In this document: positions 7,761 to 35,192 of the stretch, one piece after another
How the letters are laid out: each line of letters begins with the position of its first letter
Numbering within the stretch: the stretch's first letter is position 1
Source of the DNA: Siphonodentalium dalli
Lineage: Eukaryota > Mollusca > Scaphopoda > Gadilida > Siphonodentaliidae
DNA length: 64,000 nucleotides
Assembly (NCBI GenBank): GCA_032622095.1
Contig: CP136061.1
Location: 88,652,983-88,716,982 of the forward strand
Direction of reading: 5' to 3'
Position numbers and translations under genes: made by a program
Notes under the pieces: model-generated
The model's database searches: none
What the model saw: the letters and a program-made list of their open reading frames with translations, nothing else
What the model was told of the DNA's origin: nothing

Positions 7761-7794
<34 letters not shown>

Positions 7795-9940: not shown

Positions 9941-10072
9941 CCTTACCTCTTAGTAAAACGAGGAAACTGGCAGCGGCTCAAGTATACAACCAAATAAAGA
10001 ATATCATCGTGGTATAGCTCGCACTTTGACTGTCTGTGTGACCCGCCGTCATGAACTGGTCGCCTTTAATGC

Positions 10073-10597: not shown

Positions 10598-10617
10598 GCC
10601 TTTATGGCATGCTGACA

Positions 10618-10943
10618 TTAGATCGCTCGGCTAGTTGGTACCCCTGTTGTACGTTGTAGCATCCCTTTATATAAGTGTTCATGAAATATAACTTTCATGT
10701 CACTTATACAAATTCCAGCAAAGAGCGCCACACATAATGCAATGATCGGTGAGCTGATCAGTATTCCAAACATGCTTCCATCATAGCGGCTGATCTTCGT
10801 GTCTGTATACCGCCGAGTCTTGGTGGGATCTATCTTCAGACTTCCGGTTATGTCCTCCGCCCTATTATGTAACCCAGTCATGTCGATCACAGTGTCACTC
10901 ACGCAGCGACACCTGGTGTATATAGAGTGGAATGTGTTGCTTC
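10618..10943 (-). CDS. terminal exon with transmembrane segment, cell-surface protein
   Basis: An open reading frame of about 108 codons begins after a good acceptor (polypyrimidine-poor but ending TTCCAG at 10947-10944) and ends in a stop at 10618. It reads as a juxtamembrane region with a Cys-x-Cys pair (TRCRCVSD), a hydrophilic stretch with TKTRRYTDTKISRYDG, then a hydrophobic span of about 20 residues (GILISSPIIALCVALFAGI) and a short tail. From memory, lophotrochozoan surface proteins often have a similar stretch (Thr/Ser, Tyr, Arg, Asp) just before the membrane span. An AATAAA lies on the minus strand at 10539-10534, about 80 nt past the stop. The phase-1 start fits the phase-1 donor of the CTLD exon at 23424. 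It could instead belong to another gene. Confidence 0.5.
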
Positions 10944-13900
10944 CTGGAATTGATATAAGGGTATACACTCTTATAACAAAAGTGTATAAATTATATACAA
11001 TATGTTTAAATTTTTTATCTTAATACTCTAGTAGCTCATCGTGGTTTTGTATGCACGTGTATGTCCGAGCAATACTCTTCATGAATCCACTAATTGAAGG
11101 TACACGAACAATATTTGGTTGGTGACACATTTCCCATTGAGGGCGAAATGGGTCAATTGGCCACGCCCCTTTTTGTGCGAAGTACTACCACCCGCCGTGA
11201 CTATATCTCCAAAACCGTTGAACATAGGGGGTCGTGTGACCACTCAAAATGTGCGGAATGGCCACACTATGGGGAGTCAGTGAAACATTTTCATATCCAA
11301 AAGAAGTCAATGGTTTTTAAGATAATTGCCAAAAACCGATTTCAGCATGTTACGCACCACAAGTATACAATACCACCAAGGCCACAGCACATGTATGACA
11401 CCTTTTAAAGAACTATCCCCATTCTCTGATCGACTTAAGAACACAATTGACCACACACAATGGGATTAGCTGGAAATTGCTGCTGAGGATGTGTTGACCC
11501 CGACACACAATGTGAGCTCTTCCCGACTGAACATGCCTTGGAAACTGGTGTGCTTTACCAAAAATCAAGTAAAAATTGTGCTCTAATCAACAGAAATGTA
11601 CAGATTGAACAAGACAAGTTTCAAAATTTGTTATCAACATTTAACAGCTGATCTGATTTAAGTGACCAAGCTATGAAACATGCTAAACACTTTTACTAAA
11701 TGGAATGACCAGCTGTTTGCTTCATGCAGCAGCCACATGTTGCGATCTTAAAATGGGTATTGCATCTGGGCATAGTAAAAACATGTTGTAATCAGATGAG
11801 AGATGACCATATATACCAGTATATATTTCAGAAGTAATCAATTCTTCCAAAAGGACACCTCATCTCACAAAAAGTTTTGGGAAATTATGGAATCATCACT
11901 ATTCAATTAATAGTAGAATGAGCCTTTGTCAGTCCCACATTAGTTTTGATTGGCCATGATAGTTGCAGCACTTGCAGGCTGGAGAAGATGAGGGTCTATA
12001 ATTTCACTAACATAATTCTTCATAATAGCTAATAGCCCTCATAACTTACCATTTTAAAGATATTTTCATTCTCAATACCATCTCAGGTTAAGTGGTCCTG
12101 CTAATTTTATATTATGCTGATGGGTACTGCTGAATTGCTATGATGTTTGGATGTCAAAGCGATTCTGTTGAGAAATAGTACCATCATTTTACCTAAAGTT
12201 GGTTATTTTGCATTGTTTGGCTAATCCGAGCAATTTGTGCAAAAGTCAGTGTATGTATGAAACATTCGAGAACATATATACTTCAAAATATGAAATGTGT
12301 ACGCTGCTGTTTGGTAAACAACAGGAATAGTCATCTCAAGTATGGCCAGTTTGTAAAAACCAGCACCCATTATTAAAATATTTCACAATATACATGTTTT
12401 TTAATGTTTTCTACATATAGTGGCTTATCCTCGATTTGTTCAGATCGCTTTGCTCTACCTGACTATCATACCAAATTTATTAGCATCACCACTAAACTTG
12501 GGATGAATACTGCCAAATGAATATATTGTGATATATTGGGCAGTGGAAAAATAATGGTTGAGTCTTTTCTAAATATAATTCTAGTAAAACCTACACAATA
12601 CCGTCTTGGTCTGATAAGACTCAGAGTCATGTTTATTTAGGAGTATAGACATGAAGTCCACCAGTCTCATGAAAATTAAATGGGCTCTGCACTAGTAACA
12701 TCTGGGTTCCTGGGACCCATTAATATTGACAAATGCAAACACAAATGAAAAATACATAGTAACTTTCCTCAAACATAGATTATAACCTGACAATCTCTGT
12801 GTTAGAATCAGTGCAGACATGTATATGTAGGCATGGCCATAACATGTTTTTGAAATACTGCAGAGTGCAGACCATAAATTTCACTAGAATATACATGTAG
12901 TTACTGCATGTACATCACACACATAAGGCGACTGACACACATGCACGTACCTGCATGGTTCATAATATTTGACATTTAAAGTATATATATATCCTGTGCC
13001 TATAACATCAAACCAAACGGTTTACAGTACTTTTACTGGCACATATACATACATAAAAAATAAAAGTCAATTTAAAGGGACGAAATGAAAAATATATTTG
13101 TGCAACTATAATGGAGATCTATATTGCATTACAACATCCATACATCTACTAAATCTACAACATCCACAAATCTACAACATCTACAAAAACATCTGACTAT
13201 CATAGTCATTGGTAAAGTGATCATTTTTCCTTGATAAGTTGAAACATGAGGGAGGATTGCATAGCATGGCTACCTGCAGAATGTAGATTTGTATGTATTT
13301 ATATCTGCATATCAACTGATGCTTGTATTTTTCTTCTAACTCACTCTGAGCTCACGACGCAACATGATTGCATTCGGAATTGCAAGCATATAAAGCTAGA
13401 TACTTTAGAATCAAGGTTGCCAAATAAATTTCCATGAACCTCACATGAACTCACTCAGTTGAACACAAGGAACGATTGTCAAGTTGGAAAATATTCTGAA
13501 GCCCTATATTTTTAATGTGTGGATTTATTATAACTGGACTAAAGCCCTTATAAAATAATCTGAAGGATTAGATTAGTCTTTATTACTGGATATCACACCA
13601 ATAATCAATAGACATGTATTGTTAGTTTTGAACAGGACAATATATTTTAATATTACTGCAACTGCATCTTTCTTATGACTTATTTTCTTACAAACTCCCA
13701 AATTTGAACCAGAAACAATTTAGGGCAAATATACATCTACGTGTACATATACATATACATATATCAGGATATAAAAATAGGCAATCATGCCAGGTTAGCC
13801 ATTATTTGTTCTAGAATAATGTACGTTTTAGGGAAACTGTAGAACCTTTAAACAAAATGGTAATGCAGCCAATCAAAATTGATGTGGGACTGATAAAAAC

Positions 13901-16900
13901 ACAACCTGCTCGACTACCGAATCATACTGATTGATCAAAATGTAGTAACTCAAGATTTACTAAACCTACTTGTGGGCTGAGTATAATTCAATTCAACATT
14001 AGAATACCATAAAACACCCTATTCTCCCATAAGTTTAAAGAAAATAACACATTGAACTCATTTACAAGTATATTGCTAATGTGATATATGTCATTCCATT
14101 TATAACCATTTTGGCAGCCATCTCACATCAAAGGCCATGAAATCTAGATAACAAAACATGAACTACATTCAAATGATATCACCAGGTAACCTTTTTGTAG
14201 GAGATTTAGGTTACTGATCAAATACCCTATAATTGATGATTTCCTCAACATCTTTGTTATTGGGAAAATGTCTGTTTTTCTACGACCTATATATTCCATC
14301 CAAAAACCTTATTTTCAGGGTAAAGAGCGCATTGAAGGTCAATCCCATCCGAAAATGGGACAGAAAATATCAGAAATGATACCTGTATGTGGCACCGATG
14401 GATATAGGTCAATAAAATTTTAATTGGGGGCTCAACTTTGAGATAAAAGTGCTGAACCCCGAAATTGGGGTTCAGGCCCTCAAAAATGGATTATTTAGTT
14501 TTTTTGGCAAAATATCTTTAAAACCATTGACTTTTGGATATGAAAATGTATTACTGACTCCCCATAATGTGGCCATTCCGCACATTTTGAGTGGTCACAC
14601 GACCCCCTATGTCCAACGGTTCTGGAGATATAGTCACGGCGGTTAGTAGTACTTCGCGGAAAAAGGGGCGTGGCCATTTGACCCATTTCGCCTTTATTGG
14701 GAAATGTGTCACCAACCAAATATTGTTCGTGTACCTTCAATTAGTGGATTCATGAAGAGTTTTGCTCTGGATATACAAGTGCATACAAACCCACCATGAG
14801 TTACTCTAGTATAAACAAAATTGTGTAGAAATGACACTCAACATATGGAATTTTCTCAACATTGAATAGTGAATGTGTGAGTATGTTGTAGCTAGTAGAT
14901 GACATATGTTCTATTCGAGACACAAACCTCGTAAAAAGCTACCATATTAAAAATCTGGCAGCAACTTTAAAACTTGATACAAATACAGGGTAGCATAAAG
15001 TTTTAAAGCGACTGCCAGATTTTAATATGCATGGTAGCTGATATTATGTATGACTAACTTATATTTTTAAAATATATAACCCTCTGACTCTATGTCGCGT
15101 CGCTGACACCATGTTCGCCAACTAATCAAGTAATGGGGTGTGTTAGTTGTCATCACTAATTTCGCCGAAATTTAACAACAGAAAACTGTTGTGTTGTTTA
15201 TTATCGTGAGGTGTTGAATACCTATTGTTGTATTAATAACATTTATGGTGTGAAGCCCGGTTGTTGACAAGGGCAGCCTACGACACATTACGTAACTGAC
15301 ATGCCTGATTGCCATCGATGCTACATCGAAATATAATTATATTATTGCATTTACGTATTTCGTCTCACAGATCGCCTAATCAACATAATATGATATAACC
15401 AGTACATAGATTAAGGTTTTTACGACCAGTAATCGCCTTTATACAACCATCACCATTTAATCAGCGCTCCCCATACAAATTAAATTTAGGTTGTCATTGT
15501 ATGATGTATCCGAAGTAGTAAACCCGCGTGTCCATAAGCGGCGATATTTCGTCGCCCCCACTACGTCGATCTATTCAGCGCTTTTTGAATTAGATTTCTG
15601 TCTCCATTTGTGGGAAAATGTTTGGCCAAATAAAATGTTTTGTGGCCACTTTCAAAAAAAAAAACGCTGCACGAGCATTTGCATGACTGATTCTTATCAT
15701 ATATTTGAAGGCTAATTTCTGGCAAAATATATCAGTTGTATAAAAACTCGAGGAATTACACAGAAAATGTCAGACCAACTTGCATCTATGGAACCAAGCA
15801 AATCATCATTCATTTCTTAACCCTCTCGTGGCGGGAGATTTGCTGGCGCATCATTACAGATCATGTGCCAGTGCATCCTCTTATATATGCGATAGGGAGC
15901 CTCACGTAAAAACGAGAATGCACTGGCTTGCAATATAAAGGTAAATATTGTTAGGCCGATGCATTCTCTTATATATGCGAGGCTCCCTGTGGGAGACGGG
16001 GGTATATAAGATAATGCGTTGGTACAGGATTTTCGCAACATTTCAGGAAGCTCCAGTCATGGAAGGTTTAAATGGAAATTTGTAAGCATAACAGTGCCAT
16101 CACCGATACAGCTACGATGAATACAATCATGTGAATGTGATGTGACATTTTGGTTCGCCAATGACTGGATATTGATAAACAACAAACTAGCAAGTCTGGG
16201 CTATACCTGTTGCTGTCGCTGTTACTGTTGTTGTTGTAGTTGTTGTTACTTTTGTTGCCGTTGCCGATATTCTCGTTACTGGTTTTGTTGGTGGTGGTGC
16301 CGTTGTTGTTGTTGTTGTTGGTGGTGATGGTTGTTGGGCTTTTGTCATCGTTGTTGTTGGCGGCATTGGAGTTGTCGATGTCGTTTGTGGTGGTGGTGAT
16401 GGGAGGCGTGTCATCGTCAGGGCCGTTGTTGTTGGTAAAATCGTTGCTGTCGTTGTTGTATGTGTTACTGTTGTTGTCGTTGTTGTTGTTGTTGTCGTCG
16501 TCGTTGTTGTCGTCGTCGTTGTTGTTACTGTTGTTGTTATTGTAAATAATGTTGTTGTTGTCGTTGTTATTATTTTTGGTGTTGTTGTTGTCGTCGTCGT
16601 TGTCGTTGTTGTTGTTGACATCGTTGTGGTGGTGGTCGTGGTCGTATCGGGTATGGCGTCTTCAATGTGCGGAGCGAAACATGGTAAGATATCGTTATAA
16701 CAAATCGATGAATTATCTTTTATATATAACCCATCGTCCGTATGCGTGTCTGTGAGAGTAACCCGCTCACGTTTGACGTGTTTATAACTTTTCAACCATG
16801 CTTCGCGGTTCACACGATGTGCCCTCAATAACACACACCACTACATTCATCTCTCAAATACATGAATATCGCCAACAAGCGTCTATGTAACCTAGTATAC

Positions 16901-19900
16901 CATTATTCATATGGTTAGTCATTTCCTGATATGGTATAACAAAGAGCGTTTGGCTCACTTCAGTGCGATAACAACCAGGGACATACTGTTGATTTTCTCG
17001 GTATATAAAGTTTATATATCCATATTTCGTTTTATCATATGACTCAATCATTATTTACGTTGTTTACTATGTCATAAATCAATTTCATATGAATTACTAG
17101 TTCATATCACCTTGGTTTGTTGACAAAAAGTGTGTTCTGATTGGCTGAATGGCAGCCGGGGCCGAGACTAAATGTAGGTCAAATTCGTGCGCGTCAAATA
17201 CACGAATCAACGCGATGCCGAAATTCTCGCAATTATAATCTTGAAATATATAGTTTTGGACATTGTTATACGATAAATAGAATATGTAATTCGTATTTAT
17301 CTAATAAACATACGATATAATGTCACAAACTGAGAACAGAATAGCGCACTATATCTTCGCGTGCATATTATTTCTGCTAGTTCACCAGATGTAATTGGGC
17401 TTCCGGTGCAATGAAGTGACGTCACATTAACCTTTTGCTGCCGACGTCATATAGCTATTTAGTTATGTATGTGCGTTTTGGACATCATAATCAATTTATA
17501 GGTGCCATATGATAAATAGAATATGTAAATCGTGTTTCTCTAATATGATATTTATGAAACTCGTCACGAATTTTCAGTTTTCTCTCGCCGGAGGCTCGAG
17601 AAAACTGAAAATTCTTAGACTCGTTTCATAAATATCATATGAGAGAAACACTCATTTCATATCCTCTATTTATCGACCTATCTTGGTCTTCAGTTGAATT
17701 ATGACATAGCATTAATTTGATGGTCCAAATGAGACGTGTCAGTTTAATTCTTATGATATACTGTGGAATTGGTCATCAAACATGATGAGGCAAAGGAGTT
17801 TGGTTGGTTTACTGAAGGAAGCGGCATAACTATATATACTATATATCATGCACATGGCATGGATTGCTATAGAGTTATCTCAGTGCTCTCATACTAAATT
17901 CACACTCTGCGGACCTCATTCTGCCCATGTCCGGCACCATATTATCAGGCCTGCTCAAATGCAAACAGACAGAAAGCGGGAAACGCCAAAAACCATTGTC
18001 TATGCCGAGCTATTGTAGAATACCATACAATCTGATAAATTATCTGAAATGAGCAGACCGAAAAACTCACACCTGGGTTATCTGAAACTGTCAATGATCT
18101 CATTCAGCTGTGAATAGGACAGAGGCAGAAGTCATGAACTGTATTCCAAAACAATTTCAAAGAGTATGCTGACAATATCAGGCAAACTCATCAAGCGGAA
18201 ATTCAGGAGCTGAAAAGCTAGAAACTAAAGATGAGCAAATTAAATAAATAACTAAAATAATTATTTTACTGAGCAGAAACGTTTGATCGTGAAATGCACG
18301 GCACGAGAAACAGCATCATATTTTGGAATTTATTTTCAGGTCCGATAATTCAACAAGCACATGGGAGTGATGGGACATTAACACAAGTGGGGTGATAACC
18401 GATTTCTTCATAATCCACTTTGGAATTCAATTGAAAGTTGGGATACTGTTAGGTCCCAGCCTTTGGGGAAGTCCCTGTATGTCAAGGAGGCCAAACAAAA
18501 TCTAGTAAATATGATACAGAGCCCACTGAGGCTAGAAAAGCTCAGCTGCGATACAATGCAATATATAGTTATGAATATTGTGCATGTCCACTGTCTCCTG
18601 CGCGTCCTGTTTTCATAATTGAATTATCAGTGTGTATATTAATATACAAGTATAGGCAGTCAGTTGGACTGTTCATTATTAATTTGTGAGCTATTTTTCA
18701 CCGACTTTTTGCTGCAAATCATAATAAGCCATTCTGAACATTTTTGTTAGCATTATATCACTATACGGTTGATCATCTTACATTTCTGGAAATGTGAAAC
18801 CGAATCCGGGACATAAATCGAACCCATCTGATATATCCACAATGTCCATATTTCACTACATCATTATGAGTATTAGGTGTGGTTGTAGTGATATGCACCA
18901 CAACCATATATTTTCCAAACTCAAACTTGTAGCTATGGTCACGTCAAATAGGGTGCCTTTCATTATTTGTTTATATGTCCGCTATAACAAGCTAGGACCG
19001 GAATATTCCAAGACGTATACGCAGCAATAGATTGATGTACTGTTATACTTCTTCACCCTCTCTCTCTCTCTCTCCCTCTCTCTCTTTAACTCACTCTCTT
19101 CCTCTCTCTATCTCTCTCCTATCTCAACCTCTCTCATACTATATAACCCTCACTAGCACTGTATCTCCATAGCTGTTCCACTCCTTAGTTGAGTCACTGT
19201 AAGTATTGGTTATTTTGTGAATTCGATATATTATGTAGTTTGCTCACGTTACTTTTTGTCACCTTTCGTATTTTACATTTATGTTTGGAGAAGAGGAAAG
19301 GTTAAGGAGGCGCTCCATTCGTGAACTCATATAACAGACAAAACATCAACCTGGTTATGAATGATAGTTTATAGACTGAATCAATGCACACCATTTATCA
19401 AATCTCAAGTTGCCTCCCTGCCTTCATCCACATAGTAGTTGCCACAACATAGAATTAATGTAACTTTCCTGGGTTATGTTAAAGTACAAACAGACGAGGG
19501 ACTTGGTAACAGACAACTGATGTGTAACAACTATCAACAAATAACTCTGAACAATGTAATCCGAGATTCATAATCGAAGAACACTTTTCTTTGTTGCATT
19601 GACATGTAAGTTTGTGACTGTGGTACTTGTAATTTTCTTTGAGCCACACTCGACATGACACCATTGACTTCTTGCACAAACTATCGCTGCGAGCATCTGT
19701 ATAATTCCTATCGAAAGCCCGATGTTCGTACTGAAACCGGCCAACAACTTGCTCTTGCGTTACCATTGACATGGTCTTCGACACCGATAAGCTTTTAGTT
19801 AAAATATCAACCTGATATATTATCAATGATATTTCCCCATGCTATAGTATAGGTTTGAATATTTTTTTCTAATTGTTTACGATTAAGAAGGCATTCGTGA

Positions 19901-22900
19901 ATCTTTTTTTTAAATATCGATTTCAAATTGTGAAAAATTGTTATCCTCTATAACAACTGTATGTTATAGTATTATAAAAACACATGTTCACCCTTACAAT
20001 ATGAGAGACAGATAATTATTATGCAATCATGTGGTTTAATCAAAACAAAAATAACTATATTCAAGTCTGGTCATTGGAGAGTTTGACAGGAAATATTTGC
20101 AACAAACGCACTGTATTATCAAGCTTATGAACCCACCTAGGGTATGCGCTCACTTTACTATCTGAAATAAAGTCTCAGAGAAAATTAAATTAAACATTTC
20201 TCATTGCATATTTTAGTTTTTGGTGGAAATTTTCAGAATTATTTTTTGTCGTGTGAAGGACCAAAACAGACCACCTAAAACAACATAAATATTATTCAAC
20301 CACGTTTTCAATACTAATTGATCTCTTCAGATATTATGTTGTTTTATGGTTACTTTTCTTCCAAAAAAAAATAGTTCTACATAATATGCAGTGAAAAATG
20401 CTTTATTTATTTAAATTGAGCGCACACATTGAGTTCATCTGCTAGATGACGCAGTGCGTTTGTTGCAAATACTTCCTTCAAGCTATCTAATTACCAGACT
20501 TGAATACTATTGATTATATTTTCGTTTAAACCACATTTTGTTTACATAAACGTGAATATTTTGGCTGCTCCGCTCTAACCAGATCCTCTTCTATATATCC
20601 GTTCCGGTTACCAGTGAGTAAAATGGATTTCCGATGTTGCATCTGAATTCCTTCGGATAGGAATACCCTGCCAATAACCTTACTGTCAATTAACCTTCAT
20701 TGCATATGTACCTAGATAAATAAACAAGACTCATGCTAAATTTTGCAAAGCAATTAAATTTGAAACTAACAACTCAGTGTTACAACCTAAATCTATTAGG
20801 AACACTTCAATAGTCGTGTGTATATTTTGAAACTAAATTCTTTTCAACTTGAATGCATCATCTATAAATAGGCATATGAACATATACGAGCCCGATAACC
20901 ATTCACCTGATGATATTTTGGATGGCGCTATTATCAAACCAATATCCTACCTGGAACGTTCAAGAGCGGACCTGTATCAATTAAATTTAAAATGAACATC
21001 CCATAATATCATGATAGTAGATTTATATATTCATTGGGCATGCAATTATATGGTTGGGCATGTTATGATTCTGTACCTCGCATGACTTTCAATATTCGGA
21101 ATCTGCCAATCGAAATGAAGTTAATGTCACTTTATCTCTTGTTACTAGATGTATATATGCTCCTATGTAGTAATATGCATGCATGTTGTACGTGTAATAT
21201 GCAAATAACATTACAGTCATTATCGGGTTTAAAATGTTTGATACACATTGCAAGAATATTCGGCACAAAGTGCATAAATCTTTTGAAAAATATCATGTAT
21301 TGAACCGTAACAGCCGATATTGGTTTGAAATAGATAAGTAACACACAAGTTGTGATTATGAGGATAATGCTCCAAATTCTCAACCCCTATCGGGATATTT
21401 CCTACCCTATTGTACAGAATAATATAACAAGTACACATTATACTCAGTATTTCGTATTTAGAATGCGTTTCACACTGGACGTACCCACAACACAAATGAA
21501 TTATGTTTACATGGGTTGATTTGCAATGCTCACATGTTGATACTCACACGATAACGCAATATATCCGAGTTAATTGTGATATAAAATTCAGCTTTCCGTA
21601 AAACGCAACTTCTTCAGCCTCTTTTCAGTCAGAAAAGTTAAATGACCAGATACTCCGATATATTATTATTTTAGAGTTTCCTTATTCCAATGCATGGTAC
21701 GTACTGTATAATATATATGTTTAGATTATAAATAATGGTACCTAATAGCAGCCCAAGTCTGAAGTTTGCCGATGTAAAATCTAAACATCCCCAGTATGAC
21801 ATATAATGCAACGTGGTGCTTTCCAACACAATGTGCCAACAAAACAACATCAACCCAACCAATATCCCAAGCTGTTGTGGACTGTGAAGACTTTGTCTAG
21901 CCTTTAACAAGCACAAACCCTACCTGTTTCACACAAACCCTACCTGTTTCACACAAACCATACCTGTTTCACACAAACCCTACCTGTTTCACACAAACCC
22001 TACCTGTTTCACATAAACCATACCTGTTTCACACAACCCCTACCTGTTTCACACAAACCCTACCCCATTCACACAAACCATACCTGTTTCACACAAACCA
22101 TACCTGTTTCACGCAAACCCTACGTGTTTCACACAAACCCTACCTGTTTCACACAAACCATACCTGTTTCACACAAACCATACCTGTTTCACACAAACCC
22201 TACCTGTTTCACACAAACCTTACCTGTTTCACACAAACCCTACCTGTTTCACATAAACCATACCTGTTTCACACAACCCCTACCTGTTTCACACAAACCC
22301 TACCCCATTCACACAAACCATACCTGTTTCACACAAACCATACCTGTTTCACACAAACCCTACGTGTTTCACACAAACCATACCTGTTTCACACAAACCC
22401 TACCTGTTTCACACAAACCTTACCTGTTTCACACAAACCCTACCTGTTTCACATAAACCATACCTGTTTCACACAAGCCCTACCTGTTTCACACAAACCC
22501 TACCCCATTCACACAAACCATACCTGTTTCACACAAACCATACCTGTTTCACACAAACCCTACGTGTTTCACACAAACCCTACCTGTTTCACACAAACCA
22601 TACCTGTTTCACACAAACCTTACCTGTTTCACACAAACCCAGCCTGTTTCACACAAACCATACCTGTTTCACACAAACCCTACCTGTTTCACACAAACCA
22701 TACCTGTTTCACACAAACCCTACCTGTTTCACACAAACCCTACCTGTTTCACACAAACCCTACCTGTTTCACACAAACCCTACATGTTTCACATAAACCA
22801 TACCTGTTTCACACAAACCTTACCTGTTTCACACAAACCCAGCCTGTTTCACACAAACCATACCTGTTTCACACAAACCCTACCTGTTTCACACAAACCT

Positions 22901-23738
22901 TACCTGTTTCACACAAACCCAGCCTGTTTCACACAAACCATACCTGTTTCACACAAACCATACCTGTTTCACACAAACCCTACGTGTTTCACACAAACCC
23001 TACCTGTTTCACACAAACCATACCTGTTTCACACAAACCTTACCTGTTTCACACAAACCCAGCCTGTTTCACACAAACCATACCTGTTTCACACAAACCC
23101 TACCTGTTTCACACAAACCATACCTGTTTCACACAAACCCTACCTGTTTCACACAAACCCTACCTGTTTCACACAAACCATACCTGTTTCACACAAACCA
23201 TACCTGTTTCACACAAACCCTACCTGTTTCACACAAACCCTACCTGTTTCACACAAACCCTACCTGTTTCACACAAACCCTACCTGTTTCACACAAACCA
23301 TACCTGTTTCACAAAAACCCTACCTGTTTCACACAAACCCTACCTGTTTCACACAAACCATACCTGTTTCACGCAAACCCTACCTGTTTCACACAAACCC
23401 TACCTGTTTCACATAAACCCTACCTGTTTCACACAAGGCGACGATATCCTTTCCCGGGTTGACACATGCTCTGTCAGAGAACTGGGGTATTTCGCCGTTC
23501 CAATTATACGACCACAAATAGGCGCACACGTTTGGACCGTCATTCGGCTCACCGGAGCCCCACGCAGAAACAATTTGAACTGGACGACTATCCCACGTCA
23601 ACCAATTTTCGTTGACGTCAGCCGTAATACCCATCCAGAATCGGATGGCAGTCGTCCCGCTTTCCACCCTGTAAAGTAAAACAAATTATAGGAATTACAC
23701 ACACAGATACACGCGCGCACACACTCACCCTAACACAC

Positions 23739-23771
<33 letters not shown>

Positions 23772-24360
23772 GACGAACACAGACGACGGGTTTTAGATAT
23801 ATAGATAATCCGACTGTGTGCTAATGTGTTGTGTCAGCAGTCATGGCGAATTGAGTTGTGTTATCGGGTACTGTTATCTATTAAATATTTTTGGAACCTC
23901 TGTCTGTCTGTCTGTCTGCATGTATGTATGTATGTGTGTTATAGACTCGAAAACTACTCGACCGATCCGATCCTACTTTGATCCCGGGAACAATATGGGT
24001 GGGTCCGATTTCAAGTCGGACCGTGTCCGTGACCTTGGCCTCGCTCATATAGGTATGTTTCTGGACCTCGACCGATCCGACTCAAATGTAGACCGAATAG
24101 GTTCGATATCTTTAATACTATATTTCTTTGAAACAAATGCAATTAAGATGAGTTTCAGGTTTCTATACACACTTACACGAAGTTCCTCAGAAATTCTAAA
24201 TGTGTACTATCTTGGATGACGAATGGCATCCCGTTTCCATTGGAACAAATGTCGTCCGCTTCCGGTTTGGAGAGGAAACTTGCATCATTGATCCAGTAAC
24301 ATTTACTGAGATCGCTATTGGGTGTCATATTCAATTCCGGGCATGTGGCTCCGAAAATCC
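10618..24360 (-). CDS. C-type lectin gene model, possibly with a transmembrane tail (three exons)
   Basis: Proposed minus-strand gene joining 24360-24177, 23668-23424 and, tentatively, 10943-10618. Phases agree at every junction: exon A starts in phase 1 and ends in phase 2, exon B starts in phase 2 and ends in phase 1, and the TM exon starts in phase 1 and runs to a stop. Acceptors (TTGTAG, TTTACAG, TTCCAG) and donors (GTAAGT, GTAGGG) are canonical. The product would be an extracellular CTLD followed by a short Cys-x-Cys linker, a membrane span and a short cytoplasmic tail. A signal-peptide exon ending in phase 1 should lie above 24360; I could not find it. The last intron would be 12.5 kb and contains the minisatellite and several transposons. 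Joining to the TM exon is inference; the two CTLD exons are much firmer. Confidence 0.5.
11024..14812. mobile_element. 3.8-kb element with about 310-bp terminal inverted repeats
   Basis: The left arm (about 11024-11345) and right arm (about 14495-14812) are close inverted copies, sharing for example TTCATGAATCCACTAATTGA, GGTACACGAACAATATTTGG and GTGGTCACACGACCCCCTAT (the last on the plus strand of the right arm). The outer edges read CTCTAGTAGCTCAT and, inverted, CTAGAGTAACTCAT, flanked by TA, so a TA target duplication is possible. The 3.1-kb interior has no transposase that I can recognise, so the copy is non-autonomous or decayed. The 104- and 81-codon frames in the arms are mirror images of each other and are repeat sequence. 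Confidence 0.8.
12083..12330 (+). repeat. copy of the 54.9-kb MITE family, nested in the 3.8-kb element
   Basis: Shares AAGTGGTCCTGCT, GCTGAATTGCTA, GGCTAATCCGAGC and GAAACATTC...GAACATATATA in order with 54899-55095. The far end is not recognisable. Confidence 0.65.
14938..15039. repeat. inverted repeat, about 40-bp arms
   Basis: AGCTACCATATTAAAAATCT pairs with the sequence ending ATGGTAGCT, and AACTTTAAAACTT pairs with AAGTTTTAAAG. The centre is about 20 nt. Confidence 0.9.
15040..15825. other. non-coding, no gene seen
   Basis: Nothing beyond a poly-A tract at 15654-15664. A 74-codon frame here lacks splice signals or a recognisable product. Confidence 0.5.
15826..16075 (+). repeat. dispersed repeat family R1, copy 2
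   Basis: Direct partner of 1484-1690, somewhat longer. It holds GTGCATTCTC / GAGAATGCACT type inverted sub-motifs and ends with CAGGAAGCTCCAGTCATGG. Confidence 0.75.
16200..16650. repeat. GTT/GTC trinucleotide repeat block
   Basis: About 450 bp of GTT with GTC, GTG and GTA variants. The minus strand gives a Thr-rich frame (215 codons) and the plus strand Leu-rich frames. Frames open on both strands are expected from the repeat itself, so no gene is called. Confidence 0.92.
17034..17690 (+). repeat. dispersed repeat family R3, copy 1, with long hairpin
   Basis: About 650 bp, matched closely in the same orientation at 44156-45400. It contains a hairpin at about 17540-17655: GTGTTTCTCT and GATATTTATGAAACT on the left pair with TTTCATAAATATC and GAGAGAAACAC on the right, and TTTTCAGTTTTCTC pairs with GAGAAAACTGAAAATT around CGCCGGAGGC. 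An internal direct repeat, GATAAATAGAATATGTAA, occurs at about 17270 and 17508. Confidence 0.92.
17700..20020. other. mostly non-coding; one Cys-rich frame
   Basis: A (CT)n tract lies at 19057-19135. At 19740-19479 on the minus strand a frame preceded by an acceptor-like CGGTTTCAG holds eight cysteines in about 65 residues (including CQCNKEKC) and ends in a stop. It could be an exon of an extracellular protein, but I recognise no family and give it low weight. Confidence 0.35.
20029..20536. mobile_element. inverted-repeat element, about 0.5 kb
   Basis: Arms 20029-20113 and 20452-20536 are inverted copies, sharing ATGTGGTTTAA, TATTCAAGTCTGGT, and ATTTGCAACAAACGCACTG. No target duplication was clear. 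Likely a MITE. Confidence 0.8.
20540..21911. other. non-coding, no gene seen
   Basis: Several 80-90 codon frames overlap on both strands, with no domain, splice pair or codon bias to support them. Confidence 0.5.
21912..23437. repeat. 20-bp minisatellite (about 76 units) derived from a splice donor
   Basis: Perfectly phased 20-bp units, plus-strand consensus CCTGTTTCACACAAACCCTA, run for 1.5 kb. Read on the minus strand each unit contains AAACAG followed by GTAGGG, GTATGG or GTAAGG, which is the exact exon/donor junction of the lectin exon that borders the array. A few variants break the donor (units with CCCCATT, TACGTG or AGCCTG). Higher-order structure is present: 22561-22760 is repeated essentially exactly at 22981-23180, and the CCCCATT variant recurs at 22061, 22301 and 22501. 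Confidence 0.97.
23424..23668 (-). CDS. C-type lectin domain, second exon (ligand-binding half)
   Basis: This exon carries the WMGI strand, the long-loop motif GSGEPNDG (an EPN-type calcium/sugar site, usually associated with mannose-type binding) and cysteines in NVCAYL, RACVNPG and ALCETG that complete the canonical disulfides. The usual WND motif is replaced by a sequence reading FSD, so calcium binding at the second half of the site is uncertain. The acceptor is TTTACAG just above 23668. The donor at 23424/23423 is CAG followed by GTAGGG. Joined to the upstream exon the frame is open across the junction (NFV then VESG). There is no stop codon, so translation must continue into another exon. 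The last 14 nt of this exon are the seed sequence of the adjacent 20-bp minisatellite. Confidence 0.85.
23690..23775. repeat. (CA)n microsatellite
   Basis: CA/CG dinucleotide tract with short interruptions, inside the intron between the two lectin exons. The same intron also holds a short CTGT/ATGT repeat at 23900-23940. Confidence 0.9.
24177..24360 (-). CDS. C-type lectin domain, first exon (N-terminal half)
   Basis: The exon encodes about 61 residues with the start of a CTLD fold: a Cys before the first strand (TCPEL), the KCYW segment, an alpha-helix region (SFLSKPEADDIC) and a following G-rich turn (SNGNGMPFVI). This matches the spacing of long-form CTLDs, with three of the expected six cysteines here. 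The acceptor is a pyrimidine-rich stretch ending TTGTAG before 24360, and the donor GTAAGT begins at 24176. C-type lectins of invertebrates bind glycans outside the cell, often in immunity or recognition. No signal peptide is on this exon, so an upstream exon is expected. On the minus strand at about 24510-24460 there is a faint copy of this exon's start, perhaps a decayed duplicate. Confidence 0.82.
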
Positions 24361-24904
24361 CTACAATAGAATAAAAATACAAATTGTTCAGAGTGCTACG
24401 AGGAAATTTTGTGTCATCGATTGACTAACAATTACCGAGAATACCATAAAGTGACACATATATAATTATGGGGCATATCGCTCCTCCAAAAATACCAACA
24501 AGAGAATACACATGAACTCTGATCTTATTTAACATTGAACGTCAATCAATCGACACACCATTAATCGACACATTAACACACCCAATCATATAGTTAGACT
24601 GTTATGCTATATTTGCACACAAAATGTGTAAACTATTTCCTTCGGTGTCATCAGGTCATATAACACGCGGGGGTATTCCCCGCGACCACTACATGTGTAC
24701 ATATATTTATTTTCTGTCTCGGGTTACGATTAATCGGATACTCGATCAATCGTCGGTTAGTATAACATTCACTAATCGACGATAACTGGATAATCGATTA
24801 AGACGAGATTCGTTGAGAGGTATTTATGTTGATACAGTTCCGCATTAAACCGTTTGCATCGTATTTTTTTTTGTTGTGCAGTAGAATTAGGTAAACTTTT
24901 TGGG

Positions 24905-25160
24905 GTGTCTCAGCCCTCCCAATAGTTGGAAATTTCATACATACCAAACATTGGTGGACATTTCACACAAACAATAGGTTGAATTGTCCACGTAGTTTGA
25001 TTTTCCAACAATTAGTTAGCGGGAATTTGTTGTTTTTATACCAACATTTGCATATTTTCCTACTTTTGGTAAAAATGTTGGACTGATATGGCCATCAGTT
25101 GGACATTTTCCAACCTTAGTGGGTGTCAGGTTGGAATTGTCCTACAATTGGAAAGCTTGA
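24905..25160 (+). repeat. dispersed repeat family R4, copy 1
   Basis: Inverted partner of 61745-62010. Shared blocks include GGAAATTTCATAC, GCATATTTTCCTACTTTT and AACCTTA.. with GTTGGACATTTTC.. segments. Confidence 0.75.
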
Positions 25161-25683
25161 GGCCAGTCTAGATGCTAGGATATTTCAATTTTCATGCTCA
25201 GATTTCAAATACTGTCAACCACATTGAGCATTAAAAGCTGCTAATTAATTTAAGAAAAACAAATCTTGTGTCAATTTCCCTAAACAACCATATGTTAGTA
25301 TTTTTGCATTGACAGATTCACATTTCAGCATTTCTCATGGATTCCGTTCCTGACCTCGCTAGTGGCCACAGAAGACAACCGACCATTTATAATAGGCTAC
25401 CACCCAGACCTGTGAGGGAACAATTGTGGGAAATAAAACCCCAAAGGGGAGGGGGTCCTCAAATGGAATTACTCAAACTTGTGAGTTTGTTGTGGATCAA
25501 ATGGGGGGTGCAGTGGAAGTTCCAAGGAGGACACTCCCAACGGAAACCCTTTAATCACGTCTCTAAATATTGGAAGACATGATAAATCCGAATATCGTCA
25601 AAACATAACATTCAGGATTAAATGTAACTATAAACATTGTCAGGATACTGGTTACTATGAAGTATTGTGTTTGGCGTGTTACT
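25161..25683. other. non-coding, unrecognised frame
   Basis: A plus-strand frame at 25337-25582 (starting MDSVPDLASG) matches nothing I know and has no clear splice sites. Confidence 0.35.
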
Positions 25684-28600
25684 CTGATAAGATAAGATAA
25701 GTTTAATAGGCAAAACATCCTTATAAGGACAGTATGCAAACATAATATATAGTTGTACATTGAACAATATAATAAATGATATAATAATAGATGGTAATAT
25801 ATAACCTTAGTAAAGCTGAATGTGCATAGGGTCGTCTCGTCTTCATTTATGCATTAATTATGAGGCGATGCTGATCGCGTGCGGAAAATAATTTTCGGAT
25901 TATATGACATATTGAAGTGCATGAGTTTGAAATATTGTTGGATAGTATTTTGACAAGCTGTTCAGTTTGTGTCATGTTTTCAAAGTCTGGGAACTGTGTC
26001 TTCATAAGAGTTATTAGTTCAAGCCCCGGCGTGCGGTAAGCACTACATTCCAAAAGAAAGTGTTTTTCATCTTCAATAGCATCATCGGAACAAAATATAC
26101 ATAGTCTTTGTTCCAATGCCGTCGGTGGTTGTGTGTGGCGTCCCTTTTCAATAGCCTGTTTATGATTACTTATACGTGAAAACGATTCTATTTTCTATTG
26201 TTGGTGTGTGAAGAAGATAAGATTTCGTACTCAAGTTTGAAAAGTAATTTATTACTTCCCGTTTTTGAGCATTCATCAGAGAGACTCTGTCTGAAATATA
26301 TATAATAATCTTCAATAAGATTTCTTTTGAATTGACTCAGAACTGGACCCGGATTTTGTTTTAGGTCTGCAATATTCCACCCCAGTGATTCTGCCGTTTT
26401 GAAGATTGATTTCTTAACCGATGCCACTTGTTGTTCCAGCGCAGCATTACGGAGCAGATTACAGTCCGACCGTGAACTTATCTTAATTACATAAGATGAA
26501 AGTCTGCATGCCACGTCAATAAATAGTGGGTGGCTCCCTAACTCAGCGCGTACAGCGTTGTTCGAAGAACATCTGCCGACTCCGAGTAACCGCTTACAAT
26601 ATTTTATGTGTACCTTCTCACATGGTAGGCGATCGTGATTTTTAGTGGTTATTTCCACACCCCATATTTCGCTACCCTATAACAATATCGGCTTAATTAA
26701 TCTATCGCAGAGTTTTAAAGACGTCACTAGTGGAATCGGTGCGTCGTTTGTACATGCGTTAAATAGTGAATGCATTGCTTTGAGTCCTTTAGCACTCAAT
26801 TCTTCCATTGCATGTGAGCATCTACCCGTATTACTAAATTTAATTCCAAGATAATTGTATTCATTAACATTTTCCAATTTTTGATTTCCAATGTGAAAGT
26901 CTGGTGAAGTTTTAGCTTTCCTACTTCTAAACACCACACATTTAGTTTTATCAGTGTTCACGGTGAGTTTATTGGTCTCAGTGTATCTATTTAGTCTCAT
27001 ATTATTCTGTTTAGACAGCGCTGTAGCCCACTCGGAGTATCCGAAAGTAAAACTAGGTCGTCAGCGAATAAAATGTGATTAAGTGTATCATTGCCTAAAT
27101 GGACAGCATCGCAAGGACTGTCAAACTCTTTTTTAATGTCATCAATAAAGATTTTGAACATGTTTGGGGACAATATGTATCCTTGCCTAACACCTATCGC
27201 GGATAAGCATGGAGGCCCCAACCCTTTGTTTGTTTTGGTGATATAGTAGCTATTGTCATATAGTGACTGTATTATCCGTAATATGAGTCCCTTAATGCCC
27301 GCGCATTTTTTTTTTTGAAAAGTATTTGTCTGTTTACTGTATCGAACGCTTTTCTGAAATTTATGAATGCAGCATATATGGGCTTTCCCAATCGTTTGTA
27401 TTTTTGAATGGCCGCGTGCAGAACAAACGCTCCATCAATGGTGCTCTTCCCTTTCGAAAAACCAAATTAGTTTTCGCTGATATTATTGTTTGCATTTAAA
27501 AAATCGATTAACCGACGATTAATTATTTTGTTAAACAATTTACCGACCGCCGATGATACTGCTATTGCCCTGTAGTTATTGGGATCACTTTTGTCTCCTT
27601 TTTTGTGAATTAAAGTGAGGGTAGATTCGCTCCAATCACTCGGACAATGTCCTGTCTCCAGAATTAAGTTAAACAATTTTACAATTTCATCAATTATCAG
27701 TGGAACGAGCGACTTAAGCAATTCGTTCGAAATTTGGTCGAGTCCAACCGCCTTTCCGTTTTTTATATCTCTTGTAGCGTCAAGAACTTCCTCTGTCGTG
27801 ATATCATCATTATTAATAGCTTGATTGCAAGTTTTATATGTGTCCGAAGATAATCCACAATCTGGATTATCAGGTTTCGGACAATAAAGCTCAGTGAAGA
27901 AATCAACTGATCGATCAGCATCAAGTTCATTTTGTGAGACCGGTCTCTGCCTCATTTTTGTTATGATTTCCCAATATTGTTTTGGGTTGGTTGTCTCTAA
28001 CGTATCTAGTTTACAATATATATCTGCGTAAAATGCTCGTCGTTTAGCCTTCAGCGCCTTTTTGTACGCTTTTCGTTTCACATGGTATCGCGTTCTTAGG
28101 TTTGGGTCAAATGGGTTATTCCTGAGTCTATTGTTTTCTTCTTTCATAAAAACCATTTCTTGTTCTAGCTGTTTGAATTTCTCATTAACTTCTGAGTCAC
28201 GGTTGAGTTGGTTTGTTTTGAACTCTTCAAATAGCTCTTGTAGTTCCGAAATTGCAATTTTAAGCTTTAAACATGACAATTTCTCACTGTAATTTCCACC
28301 GGTTTTCTTCTGTTTTCGTTCGAGCATTGGGGTAAGCAGGTTGATAACTTGTTTGGGAATTTGTTTGTTTTCAGTCTGCGGTGTGGTTGAAAATGTAATC
28401 GGGGAGTGTGCATTTGGAACATCCTCCCAGTAAATGTCGTGTCCATCATCGTTCTTAGGAGTTGACGAGGTTATTACCTGCTCACACTCCGAGGGCACTG
28501 TCTTTTCCTCAGAAAAACCTGATTCCCAGATGTTGGGTAGTGTTTTAGTTGTCCACCAAGTGATATTTTTCTTAGATCCTTGGATCATCATTTTGTTTTT

Positions 28601-29060
28601 AGTCCTATATACGTGAATTGTCACTTTTCCACCTTTACCGGGGTCACGTTTCGATAGACATCAATTCTTTCATCCACTATAACGTTCATTTTGTCTTTTC
28701 CTATTATCCAATGTGCATTATTTATTTCCTTTTTCAATGAGTCATCCCAATACATTGAACACAGTCCAATATAGTATATATTGTAACTGTCAGAGTCTAA
28801 GTCTATGGTCACGCAACGACCTCCATCTTTGATTTCCGTTTGGTATTTGTTTTCCTCATCATACGTTAACTTTTTCTTTATTAGTTTATCGAGATTAAGA
28901 ATATAATTTCGATCACTCACTGTTCCTCTGGTAGAATTACTTGACTTTTGCTCAAACAAACGAACCGATTATGGCACAACAGTTGTTACATCAGTGTCCT
29001 CAATAACATCGAATGTGTCATCAAAATCCGTGTAATCGAATGTTTTCATGATAATATCCA
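25684..29060 (-). mobile_element. decayed LINE (non-LTR retrotransposon), minus strand
   Basis: Reads from an N-terminal ATG near 29049 through reverse transcriptase to a C-terminal zinc-knuckle, then a short AT-rich 3' region ending in three GATAA units (CTTATCTTATC on the minus strand) at 25685-25700. A short tandem-repeat tail is typical of LINEs of the CR1/L2 kind, but the clade is not settled. The copy is inactivated by several stops and frameshifts. Confidence 0.9.
25847..29049 (-). pseudogene. LINE polyprotein pseudogene: coiled coil, RT, C-terminal CCHC-like; endonuclease missing
   Basis: Segments in order on the minus strand: an acidic N-terminus (29049-28969), an unknown domain of about 110 residues (28959-28621), then 28624-27467 with TIHVYRTKNKMMIQG, a coiled coil (SELQELFEEFKTNQ... 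to LEQEMVFMKEENNRL) and the first RT motifs (GKAVGLDQISNELL, LIHKKGDKSDPNNYRAIA). RT continues at about 27463-26680 with KGKSTIDGAF, FRKAFDTV, GVRQGYILSP and the catalytic FADD box (FADDLVLLS). The end is ALEQRLCIFC...HFLLEC at 26130-25847. Breaks: stop near 28967, frameshift near 28640, TAA at 27469, frameshift at the T-run near 27310, TAG at 26679, frameshift near 26190. No APE endonuclease domain lies between the coiled coil and RT linker, where one is normally expected. Confidence 0.88.
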
Positions 29061-29947
29061 ATATGTTCGATCTAATGATCCAAGCTAACTAAGAATATAA
29101 CTAATTTAAATAATATAACTAAGAATATAAAATCCAGTATATAATTCGATCTGTCGGCTTGCCAGCTCCATTGGCTTCCTTAATTAGTTGCGCATGACTG
29201 CTCGCAGCAGTTAATTGAAAATACGTCCGCTCACATCGAAGGTCGAGTCTTGTAAAGTTACATGGACCAAATAAAATTACATGGATCGGTTTTCAAAAAA
29301 AGAACTTTTAGAATGTAGCACCAGATAAAACAAGCCGCTACTCTCATCCGCACACGAGTAAGTAACGCTCCTGTCTTTAATAAATGCGCATGCTCGTGAC
29401 GAAATTGGCATTCTAGTTCATAGCTGATTGGTCCATTTCTTTCTGGATTTTTTTGAATTTGATACTGCGGGGACACGCGTTAAATTACCTGATATTGGAA
29501 ACACATGCATGTAATTATGCAACAATACCTACTAGAATTCATATGGAATGCTGAACGTTTCGGCGCTTGGAAGTTTCGGCATTTGGGTTTGCGGCTCGGC
29601 ACCTGAACGTTTCGGCAATTGTTAATTTTCGGACTGACGAAACTATCAGTGATGACTAAAAGTTATTTTTATTTTCATTATCATGACAGTTTTATATATA
29701 GCGATTAACCAATTACTTGCTGCAACACGCTTTTTAACATTACAATATTCTACAAACCAACCACTGAACCGGCTGCAGCCATTGCATGCGCTGCTCTGGT
29801 TTGATACTCATCAGTATGAAAAGCTGACTTGTACTCGTTTATCGCATGAGTGGTGCGAAGCCGACACAGTGCGAGCATCCTTGTTCAAGGGTCATAACTT
29901 GGCGTGAGATTTGATACAGCGATCAATTCGACATTTGCACGCCGCTC
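29061..29947. other. non-coding; short GTTTCGGC repeats
   Basis: GTTTCGGC-type motifs recur at about 29555-29625 at roughly 20-30 nt spacing. No gene seen. Confidence 0.5.
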
Positions 29948-29950
29948 TAA

Positions 29951-30052
29951 AGGTCAATCCACACCGGGCGCGAGCGAGCGATTATAACGGTCGTTTTCTG
30001 TCGTCCGTAGCAGTTCAAAGCGCGCGATTTTTATATTCACACTGCAAGCGAC
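29951..30052 (+). repeat. Harbinger left TIR
   Basis: Terminal inverted repeat partner of 33607-33708; target duplication TAA lies immediately outside. Confidence 0.95.
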
Positions 30053-30210
30053 TGAATCGCTGACCACGAGGCGATCACAGCAGTGATTGTATGCTTCGCC
30101 GAATTCTCGCTTTGTTGCAAACCAGCGAGATACTTGGGCCGCTCTCAAATAGGGTGTTTATCCGACCGTATTTGTTATATTTGAGGACGACACATTCATT
30201 TGTCGCCGCG

Positions 30211-31550
30211 ATAATTGAGGACTTTAGCGACAGGCTAATAATCGAAGTACAACGCCATGTGTGTCTGTATGACACAAAATCTCAAGAATACAGGATAAAA
30301 AGAGAAGAGAGAATACATGGGAAGCGATTGCCGGAGTAATAGGATCGTCGGGTTAGTTTTTTTAAAATTAGAATTCCATTCCAAATAGGCATACCAAGCT
30401 TGTGAAGTCACTTTGTCCACATTAAAATGAACTGCCACCCCTCCCCGATAAAAAAAAACTCACAAACTGGAATTATAGAATGAAATTCAATTAAACGCAA
30501 TTGCTATGAGATTCAGAAAGTCCATTGCACATTCCACTTGACATATTATAGTTGACAATGACATGAGTTTGAAAATCCCATATATGTATATAGTGAGCAT
30601 ATGATATTTAAAATGTCCAAATACATTACATATGCCTGCAATTCAAAACTATTTTTAGCTTTGAAATTTACATGTTCAGTTATAATTTTGAAACTATGTG
30701 GCGCCGTTCTCCTATCTATTACCTATTTTGTGATATCAAGAACTCATTTAGTGTTATCATAAAATGAATTATTGATATCACTAAATAGGTAATAAATAGA
30801 AAAAACGGTACCTTCCACCCCCCTAAAAAAAACAGTACATGTGATGGTTAAAAATAATGCATATTTTTGTTTATTTTCTCAACAGCTCAACAATGTAAAG
30901 ACAAATGGAAGAATCTAAGAGACCATTTCACTTGACACCACAAACATGTAACAAAAACTCGCAGTGGACAGGGAACATCTATAGGAAAACAGTGGAAATT
31001 TTACAAAAGCCTGCTGTTTCTGAAATCGACATCTGAGCCACGGGAAACAGCCTCAAATATTCAGCCTCAGGAAACTGCCTCTGATGTCTCCCTAGATGAT
31101 GAAAGTGTGCACCATGAGTCTTCTTCGGATGCCGAAGATGGTGACGAGTTCGTTAGTGAACCAGCAGGGGTGTCTCAGTCGGTTGGTGTTCCATTCGCTT
31201 GTAGAAAAAAACGTAGAGCGAACGACTACTTCAATGAAAAGATGCTGAAAGTAGCCCAGCAACTTGTTGAAGACCCCGTACCTCCGGCGAATGAACAACC
31301 CCCTCCAACACAAACGCCGCCACCTGATGACGAGATCACGCTGTTGTTGGAGAGTCTGTCACCATCCATGCGATCCCTAACTCCATACAAAAGATCGTTG
31401 GCAAAACTGCGAATTGAGTATATTATCCATGAACTTTCCTATGGACCATCTACTAATCCATTTGGTGCCGCAACGCCTCCTGTTATAACCCCACAAGTAC
31501 AGGACCAGCCTACCGCCGAGGAAGTTCAGGATTTATCTGTTCAAAAATAA
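30211..31550 (+). pseudogene. Harbinger accessory protein, MADF + BESS, broken
   Basis: Exon 1 (about 30211-30350) encodes the first half of a MADF domain: EDFSDRLIIEVQRH, then CLYDTKSQEY, and after a one-base deletion near 30292 TWEAIAGVIGSS. Its donor is GTTAGT near 30351 and the acceptor is TTTTCTCAACAG near 30885. Exon 2 continues the domain with QQCKDKWKNLRDHF and GKQWKFYKSLLFL, then an acidic linker, a basic KKRR patch and a C-terminal BESS-like motif (EITLLLESLSPSMRSL) before the stop at 31550. MADF/BESS proteins bind DNA and bring the Harbinger transposase to the ends or nucleus. Damage: no ATG at the expected start, the frameshift, and a TGA directly after DHFT. Confidence 0.85.
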
Positions 31551-32314
31551 ATCTACTCTACCTGATACATGTGTCTTTAATGTCGCCCCATTATGGTACA
31601 TCGATTGTAATGCCAGAATGTAAATGTTCATAAATTGTTCCCTGATCAAATTACCCTACGCCCACTACTTCATATACTCGATAGTTGGCCCCAATATATG
31701 TCATATTTCAAAAATAGAGACTGAGGATGATTACGACTAAAATCTTCCAAAACCAGTATAATTATATAAACATTTAAAACCTGATTCCGAATTTTTTAGT
31801 AATATTATCTCGTCTCTAGTTTTCAAATTCTTACTTCGGATCCAAATGCATAATTTAATTCGATGTGAACCTGAACCAAAGGAGTCCAGAATAAATGTAT
31901 TGTTCGCATGAAACCCAACTGCACACAAAACTTGGCCCTCGGGCAACAATATAATTCAGACATTTGGTACCAAGTTTTTGGTTCTTCACCAGGAGTTAAC
32001 TGAGAACACTATCTTCACCAAATAATTAAACCACATTTATTTGTGTGGTTCTTCGTGACTGAAATTCCACCTTAGATTACAACTCAGTTTATTTCTTGTT
32101 AACAACCAAAATCATGGACCGAATAATCTGCTCCATTTGCCTTCTGTAGCTTGTGAATTATATTTTGGTATAATCAGGGGAAATGATAAAGAATATAACG
32201 AGGCTAGTTCGTTCCAAAGACGTTTTCTTAAACATGAGACAATACATTCATCAACTGAACAAAATTATCAAAAGCTTACTCCATACATTGATATTAAGTG
32301 GCACATGCCATCTC
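31551..32314. other. Harbinger internal spacer between convergent genes
   Basis: AT-rich, no domains seen; likely holds the 3' ends of both transposon transcripts. Confidence 0.5.
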
Positions 32315-33521
32315 CTATTGCCAGGCAACGCGACCTCTTTCGGAATTGAAATAGTCGCGAAACTTCTCCCGCACAGCAGTTGCCCTTCTCCCAGTACGGT
32401 TTCCCACATGTTGTCGAACATCTTCAAAAATACTGTTTGTTGCAGTCGTGTCGAAAGAAGACACATCATCGTCTATTGATAAAATGAAATTATGCAAAAC
32501 CACAGTCGCCTTTACAATTTTGTCCTCATTTTCTGGATTTAAGCGAAATCGTCGCTGAACAATCTCAAATCTCTGGGCGAGGATCCCAAATGCATTTTCG
32601 ACAACCCGGCGTGCTCTCAAAAGTGTGTAGTTGTAGATTTGTTTGCTCTTTTGTCAAATTCCGACCTGGATACGGTTTCATCAGATAGGATTTTAGAGGA
32701 AACGCATCGTCTCCAATGATTGCAAAAGGCATTGGCTAATCTTGATTGTTTCCGGGCAATGGTGCATCAGGCGGAATGTGCATCGAACCAGAATCAAATC
32801 CTTTCCTCAAGTTGGACTCACGAAATACACCGGCATCATTATGGCAGCCATAACCCCCGATGTCCACGGTGATGAATCGGTAGCGGGCATCGACCAGAGC
32901 TTGCAAAACCGTAGAAAAGTACCCTTTGTAGTTCCGGAATTTTGTTCCGGAATTTGGCGGTGCAGTTATTTGAATATGCTTTCCATCGAGGGAACCAATG
33001 CAGTTTGGGAAGTTCCATTCCTGGGCGAAGGATGCCGCTGTGTCTTGTCATGTGCTAGCTGTAGGTTCTGGTAAATAGATACCTTGCAGGACATCCGAAA
33101 TTGCTACACATGTCTCGACCACGATTTCTTAGACCGTTGAGTTCCCCAAACGGAATCCAACATCTAAGGTACGGAAGGATTCGCCAGATACCAAACACCT
33201 CAAACATACTACCAAGCGTTCTTCGGAGGGCACTGCTTGGCGGAAGTTTGTGTCTTGTTTTGAAATAGACAACTCCAGTTGCCGATGCCGCTGGTCGAAT
33301 TCGTCCACTCCCATGCGACAAAACTGTTTGAATTTATCCTGATAGTCTCGTAAATCACACACAAGCGTCTTGTAGGCTCCCATTAAGCCCCTTTTTTGGT
33401 TCAAATGATGCACCCAGAATCTTCTCTGACTTTCGATTCACTTCCTAAGTAGCATTAAAAGACAAGCAGCAACAAATTTTCCCTTTTTCAAACGCCTAGC
33501 TCTATTATTGACAGCATCCAT
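32315..33521 (-). pseudogene. Harbinger DDE transposase, broken
   Basis: Reads from an ATG at 33521 through RRFWVH (33430s), the helix-turn-helix region (CRMGVDEFDQ, ISKQDTNFR, EERLVVCLRCL, GESFRTLDVGFRLGNSTV), then the catalytic core. First Asp is in GSLDGKHIQI (about 32990), second in GYGCHNDAGVFR (about 32840), and the Glu in RRVVENAFGILAQRF (about 32600), so all three DDE residues are still encoded. It ends at 32315. The frame is interrupted by a TGA before RRFWVH, a stop just after the STV segment near 33129, a stop near 33060, a TAG at 32738 and a frameshift near 32625. This belongs to the DDE_Tnp_4 family by its motif order. Confidence 0.9.
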
Positions 33522-33606
33522 CGCGGTATCATGTCGGCTCAGTGACCCAAAATGATGCACTCAAACGATTATATACCCTGACTATCGCGCGCGACGAAGA
33601 GATTTC

Positions 33607-33708: not shown

Positions 33709-33723
33709 TAAGACTCACAATTG

Positions 33724-33807: not shown

Positions 33808-33809
33808 CT

Positions 33810-35190: not shown

Positions 35191-35192
35191 TA

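Follow-up and report, generated by a model that had tools for sequence, protein, structure and literature searches.

What happens to splicing, and to the encoded protein, when the 5' splice site of an exon is followed by dozens of copies of itself? This question is raised by a 20-bp minisatellite found in the window, i.e. the whole stretch of 64,000 nucleotides that we analyzed. The initial annotation saw in it an array of functional-looking donors downstream of a C-type lectin exon, some of them stronger than the real one, and proposed that the choice between them could create alternative C-termini.

Position, register and composition of the array

The minisatellite lies at 21912..23436 and, read on the minus strand, consists of 76 units plus a 5-nt partial copy, the unit comprising the end of an exon and the sequence after it. 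TRF described it with a period of 20, 76.2 copies, 92% matches, no indels and a score of 2588, which is the highest of the 49 TRF rows in the window; this length is that of one haplotype in one assembly. The array starts inside C-type lectin exon B, and the junction stays in register across the 76 units. The founder unit, TTGTGTGAAACAG|GTAGGGT (23417..23436, minus strand), has 13 nt in exon B, covering the codons L-C-E, and 7 nt past it. The unit is made of an exon end and a predicted intron start, as the initial annotation stated, but the 14 + 6 cut that it gave is mismatched at its first base, the exact one being 13 + 7.

As read along the minus strand from the exon onward, the junction is CAGGTAGGG in 31 units, CAGGTATGG in 27 and CAGGTAAGG in 6, which makes 64 of 76 units with CAG|GTA(G/T/A)GG. 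The donor is altered in the other 12, which read CAGGCTGGG (4 units), CACGTAGGG (4), GGGGTAGGG (3) or CATGTAGGG (1). This confirmed the presence of a repeat array with dozens of donor-like sites, a good donor being kept in 64 units. CAG|GTA is intact in all of units 1-18, the earliest altered donor being that of unit 19, and pairwise identity between units averages 0.93. The many donors are copies of one junction and not 76 independent coincidences.

We considered the possibility that the unit is a satellite common elsewhere and unrelated to the exon. A blastn-short search of the window with two units gave 93 matches, 17 of them outside 21880-23460 and the longest measuring 13 nt. No exact match was found in viral contigs (two-unit pattern) or in prokaryote genome contigs (one-unit pattern). 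The window has no second array of this unit, and within the window and these contigs nothing showed the unit to be a common satellite. Other minisatellites of the window are located at 578-1380 (68-bp unit), 3746-4524 (17/59-bp) and 54450-54632 (16/32-bp).

Opposite the array, the plus strand is nearly stop-free and contains an open frame of 592 codons that would encode 20-residue repeats (21901-23679). This frame probably does not represent a gene, since about one in five random 20-mers (19.8% of 20,000) likewise had a strand with no stop in any of its three frames. At a distance from the array, an 866-aa open frame (38837-41437, plus strand) contains a reverse transcriptase domain (RVT_1, E = 2e-32), and DDE_Tnp_4 pieces, presumably from a Harbinger-like transposase, together with an oppositely oriented BESS-motif open frame, are found at 32315-33047 (minus strand) and 30936-31550 (plus strand).

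The lectin exons and the predicted junction

Two open exons predicted to encode a C-type lectin domain (CTLD) are present on the minus strand. Exon A (184 nt, 24177..24360; acceptor score 3.24) is entered in phase 1 and left in phase 2, and is followed by the donor GTAAGT (CGTGTAAGT, PWM score 2.99). Exon B (245 nt, 23424..23668; acceptor score 4.72) ends with ...VALCET|G in phase 1. When joined and extended with the read-through tail, the two exons matched Pfam Lectin_C (PF00059) with 28.2 bits, exceeding the curated cut-off of 22.6 (E = 3.4e-6, profile positions 6-92 of 107). The joined exons also matched lithostathine in the PDB (E = 3.5e-6), and the C-type lectin assignment made by the initial annotation was thereby borne out. 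Neither exon A nor exon B gave a match singly at E 0.001. The six cysteines of the two exons are arranged as in a long-form CTLD, and it is from this pattern that we assigned the last CTLD cysteine, which presumably is that of L-C-E and lies outside the stretch matched by Lectin_C.

No further CTLD exon was found in the window below E = 1 (2947 six-frame pieces of at least 15 residues). A search for an upstream signal-peptide exon gave none in 24362-40000 when thresholds were strict, and two poor candidates in 24362-34000 when they were relaxed. A PDB search with a 62-aa C-terminal piece returned one match, an antibody chain (E = 0.44), which we ascribe to chance, and none of 4 pattern stretches in viral contigs was confirmed as a relative of exon B. 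Just upstream of exon A, the segment 24425-24535 (minus strand) possibly contains a degenerate partial copy of the 5' boundary of this exon (acceptor and first codons). Its score of 32 was the best among 845 tiles, unrelated tiles scoring up to 30, and it was not retrieved by blastn; either chance or an ancient duplication, here of the other boundary type, could account for it. Within the predicted intron between exons A and B, the stretch 23697-24140 contains an (AC)n tract and a TCGGATCGGTCGAG motif that occurs twice and may be part of a mobile element.

The putative authentic 5' splice site of exon B, CAG|GTAGGG, spans 23418..23426 on the minus strand, its GT beginning at 23423. Extracellular modules usually have phase 1 on either side, and so does the CTLD exon pair, at the entry of exon A and at the exit of exon B; this agreement points to a real donor. 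Judging from the sequence, the end of exon B is predicted to be a true exon-intron boundary.

If so, the array would occupy 1512 nt of a candidate intron of 2473 nt (20951..23423, minus strand), followed by a candidate terminal exon at 20385..20950. The acceptor of this exon, at 20950, scored 5.9, which ranks third among 700 AGs scored between the array and position 8000. It is the best acceptor between the array and position 19500 and the only one to reach at least 4. The candidate exon would reach a stop in phase 1 after GRILV and would have its approximate 3' end near AATAAATAAA (20402-20411), the sole such decamer on the minus strand of the window. We regard this decamer as weak evidence for a 3' end because a single AATAAA is frequent, with 77 occurrences on the minus strand of the window. 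Variant hexamers resembling poly(A) signals are present on the minus strand at 21659 (AATATA), 21131 (GATAAA) and 21022 (TATAAA), and no Pfam domain was found at E 0.05 in the three minus frames of 7001-21999.

Strength of the donors and predicted coding outcomes

Donors were scored on the basis of 5' splice site frequencies, and pairing was assessed as U1 duplex energy. The putative authentic donor, CAGGTAGGG, scored 6.17 with a duplex energy of -11.2 kcal/mol. CAGGTAAGG was stronger (8.02, -11.5 kcal/mol) and CAGGTATGG, the sequence of the GTATGG units, was weaker (5.04, -7.7 kcal/mol). The idea that some units surpass the real donor was thus correct for 6 of 76 units and incorrect for the 27 GTATGG units. 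Outside the array, the score of CAGGTAGGG is reached or exceeded by 8 donors on the minus strand (62,475 nt) and by 4 on the plus strand. About 0.005 such donors would be expected within 40 nt of the last cysteine, a figure somewhat weakened by the fact that the site was originally chosen for its donor-like look.

As acceptors, the array units scored -1.91, a value equaled or exceeded by 596 of 3037 other minus-strand AGs, and the weakness of these acceptors suggests that splicing within the array is unlikely. The RNA of 23300-23460, comprising the exon end and the first units, did not fold better than shuffled sequences (z = 0.68, 145 of 200 shuffles folding at least as well), and no known structured RNA (at Rfam gathering scores) or tRNA was detected.

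The coding outcome was computed for the 76 donors, 10 of which were listed individually. With donor 1 the exit phase is 1, and with donor 2 it is 0, after the addition of TGRVYVKQ. Donors 3-76 all give the same end, TGRVYVKQVGFV, because a TGA at 23389..23391 (minus strand, as read from the sequence), which is also the stop of the read-through, precedes each of them. Diverse repeat-coded C-termini, as put forward in the initial annotation, are therefore ruled out by the sequence: there are only three coding outcomes, and from donor 3 on a single tail. The three minus-strand frames of the array contain 41, 41 and 39 stops.

Messages in which a donor located at least 55 nt past a stop is joined to a downstream exon are expected to undergo nonsense-mediated decay. 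This distance from the TGA is reached by 71 of the 76 donors, and the use of any of these is predicted to lead to message decay. From the layout of the stops, no more than a few protein ends are predicted, accompanied by decay products, rather than a family of tails.

Origin and likely behavior of the array

The simplest direction of copying would be from the gene to the array, since the exonic part of the unit, L-C-E, encodes the expected last CTLD cysteine. When the array is collapsed to one unit (...gccTTGTGTGAAACAGGTAGGGTttgtgc...), TTGTG is found at either end of the 20-nt period; the chance of an extension of at least 5 nt is 0.0046 if equal base frequencies are assumed. Direct repeats at both ends are the expected trace of slippage, and it is for this reason that we propose such an origin. 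A block of 12 units recurs exactly at units 14 and 35, a 12-unit repeat being found in none of 2000 shuffles of the unit order (mean 4.6, best 11), which suggests turnover. In a lag test covering 1-39 units, z did not rise above 2.5, the highest values being 2.17 (lag 10) and 2.13 (lag 21); the array therefore has recurring blocks without a regular higher-order repeat.

Selection on the extra donors is not suggested by the pattern of variation, as the donor positions are not depleted of it: by a hand count from the variant types, in which each change was assumed to have arisen once, 6 of 11 changes fall in the 9 donor positions of the 20 (P(<=6) = 0.83). We gave little weight to the intact donors of units 1-18, because altered units are spread in blocks.

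The anatomy of the array is of a known kind. Human IFI6 (6-16, G1P3) contains a minisatellite with a 12-nt unit in 26 copies. Several splice donors are reportedly supplied by it (Turri et al. 1995). The likeness to the lectin array is that both are minisatellites with donor-like units; the difference is that the use of downstream units is reported in IFI6, where isoforms are described in which two downstream repeat units act as splice donors (PMC4526556), whereas it is only possible in the lectin array. Decoys are thus not always silent.

The closest parallel that we found is with the "mirages" of lancelets, described in one report as tandem duplications that resemble minisatellites, are unstable in length and cover exon-intron boundaries of globin genes (BflGb6/BflGb9) and of Adh3, many of the units having AG/GT and those of Adh3 measuring 10-72 bp (PMC3087553). 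According to its authors, Adh3 data and globin RT-PCR suggest that regular splicing is undisturbed (PMC3087553). Another report states that no aberrant mRNAs arise from the Adh and troponin C mirages, and describes similar imperfect repeats over PGBD5 splice sites (PMC3902484). Like the units of mirages as described there, those of the lectin array lie in tandem across an exon-intron boundary, often have AG/GT and fall, with 20 bp, within the Adh3 range. They repeat exon and adjacent intron in exact register (13 nt + 7 nt, the boundary being predicted) and carry splice signals in many but not all copies (64/76 against 12/76). The turnover typical of minisatellites is a further likeness, suggested here by the recurring 12-unit block. 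The units differ in number, 76 compared with 6 and 3 in two BflGb6 haplotypes (PMC3087553), and in the gene, which here is a C-type lectin gene; the group reported to have mirages is that of the cephalochordates.

Two more distant cases can be compared. Reports on intron gain from tandem repeats deal with the AGGT model and with 24-nt repeat introns in Schizosaccharomyces (PMC4974935, PMC3629103). These cases also involve short tandem AGGT units in or beside an exon, but there an exon gives rise to a new intron, whereas the lectin unit already has a donor and its acceptors are weak. Variable repeats at human exon-intron boundaries may likewise, according to another report, cause novel introns (PMC2812944). 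The prawn Rlec C-type lectins also have variable tandem repeats, of 30/33 bp and coding, in exon 2 (PMC7536079); the unit of the lectin array, with its 20 bp, is not a multiple of three and has many minus-strand stops. No report of the present array was found in the literature listings searched, few papers of which were examined, in passages. Its length and its number of near-consensus donors are what stand out.

We consider it likely that the array is a long minisatellite of the mirage type, in which donor 1 is used and the other units are near-neutral decoys. A 20-bp segment across the 3' end of the CTLD exon and the start of its intron would have been tandemly duplicated, probably via slippage between the TTGTG microhomologies, after which additional unequal exchange or the duplication of blocks would have brought the number of units to 76. 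We infer that the exon's own donor (unit 1) is most likely still used, with splicing to the 3' exon, and that the remaining units are intronic and close to neutral. If splicing leaked to donor 2, a few residues at the C-terminus would differ, and if it leaked to donors 3-76 it would produce one identical short tail, with decay predicted for 71 of the 76 donors. In this gene the array is probably harmless.

It appears unlikely that exon B is instead a terminal exon, in which case there would be no intron, the protein would end with ...LCETGRVYVKQVGFV, the donor-like motif would be incidental and the array would be 3' untranslated sequence with dozens of U1-binding-like sites. CTLD proteins often end shortly past their last cysteine, and the read-through stop 12 residues past the last E, together with the poly(A)-signal-like hexamers downstream on the minus strand, fits such an arrangement. 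Yet donors of the quality of CAGGTAGGG should occur only about 0.005 times per 40 nt, the phase-1 donor suits a 1-1 module, and the 3' untranslated region would extend over about 3 kb to AATAAATAAA at 20402-20411, the nearer hexamers at 21659, 21131 and 21022 being possible signals. A working multi-donor array, in which several units are used and array length adjusts how much of the message is productive and how much decays, would agree with the good donors of 64/76 units, 6 of them better than the authentic one, with CAG|GTA in all of the first 18 units and with the precedent reported for IFI6 (PMC4526556). We nevertheless regard it as quite improbable: the coding outcomes are only three, the donor positions show no more conservation than other parts of the unit, the intact early units may stem from duplicated blocks and not from selection, and lancelet mirages reportedly do not give rise to aberrant mRNAs (PMC3902484).

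A reading in which the array is a length-encoded brake on the lectin gene, with dozens of strong decoy donors competing with the real one, nearly all of them past the shared stop, so that more decay would follow from each added unit, seems very unlikely; if it held, allele length, possibly changing in body cells, would set lectin output. Finally, it is hardly credible that the array is an intermediate of intron gain, spliced out between the GT of one unit and the AG of a later one, as in the Rogers model and the repeat introns of fission yeast. CAG|GT is indeed present in 64/76 units and precedents exist (PMC4974935, PMC3629103), but an ordinary donor is already available at the junction, and the array acceptor lacks a pyrimidine tract and scored -1.91, compared with 3.24 and 4.72 for the CTLD acceptors.

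With 76 near-identical units, 64 of which carry good donors, this locus offers a natural system for studying the choice that the spliceosome makes among near-equal donors. If its host is not a lancelet, it would widen the range of mirage-type arrays.
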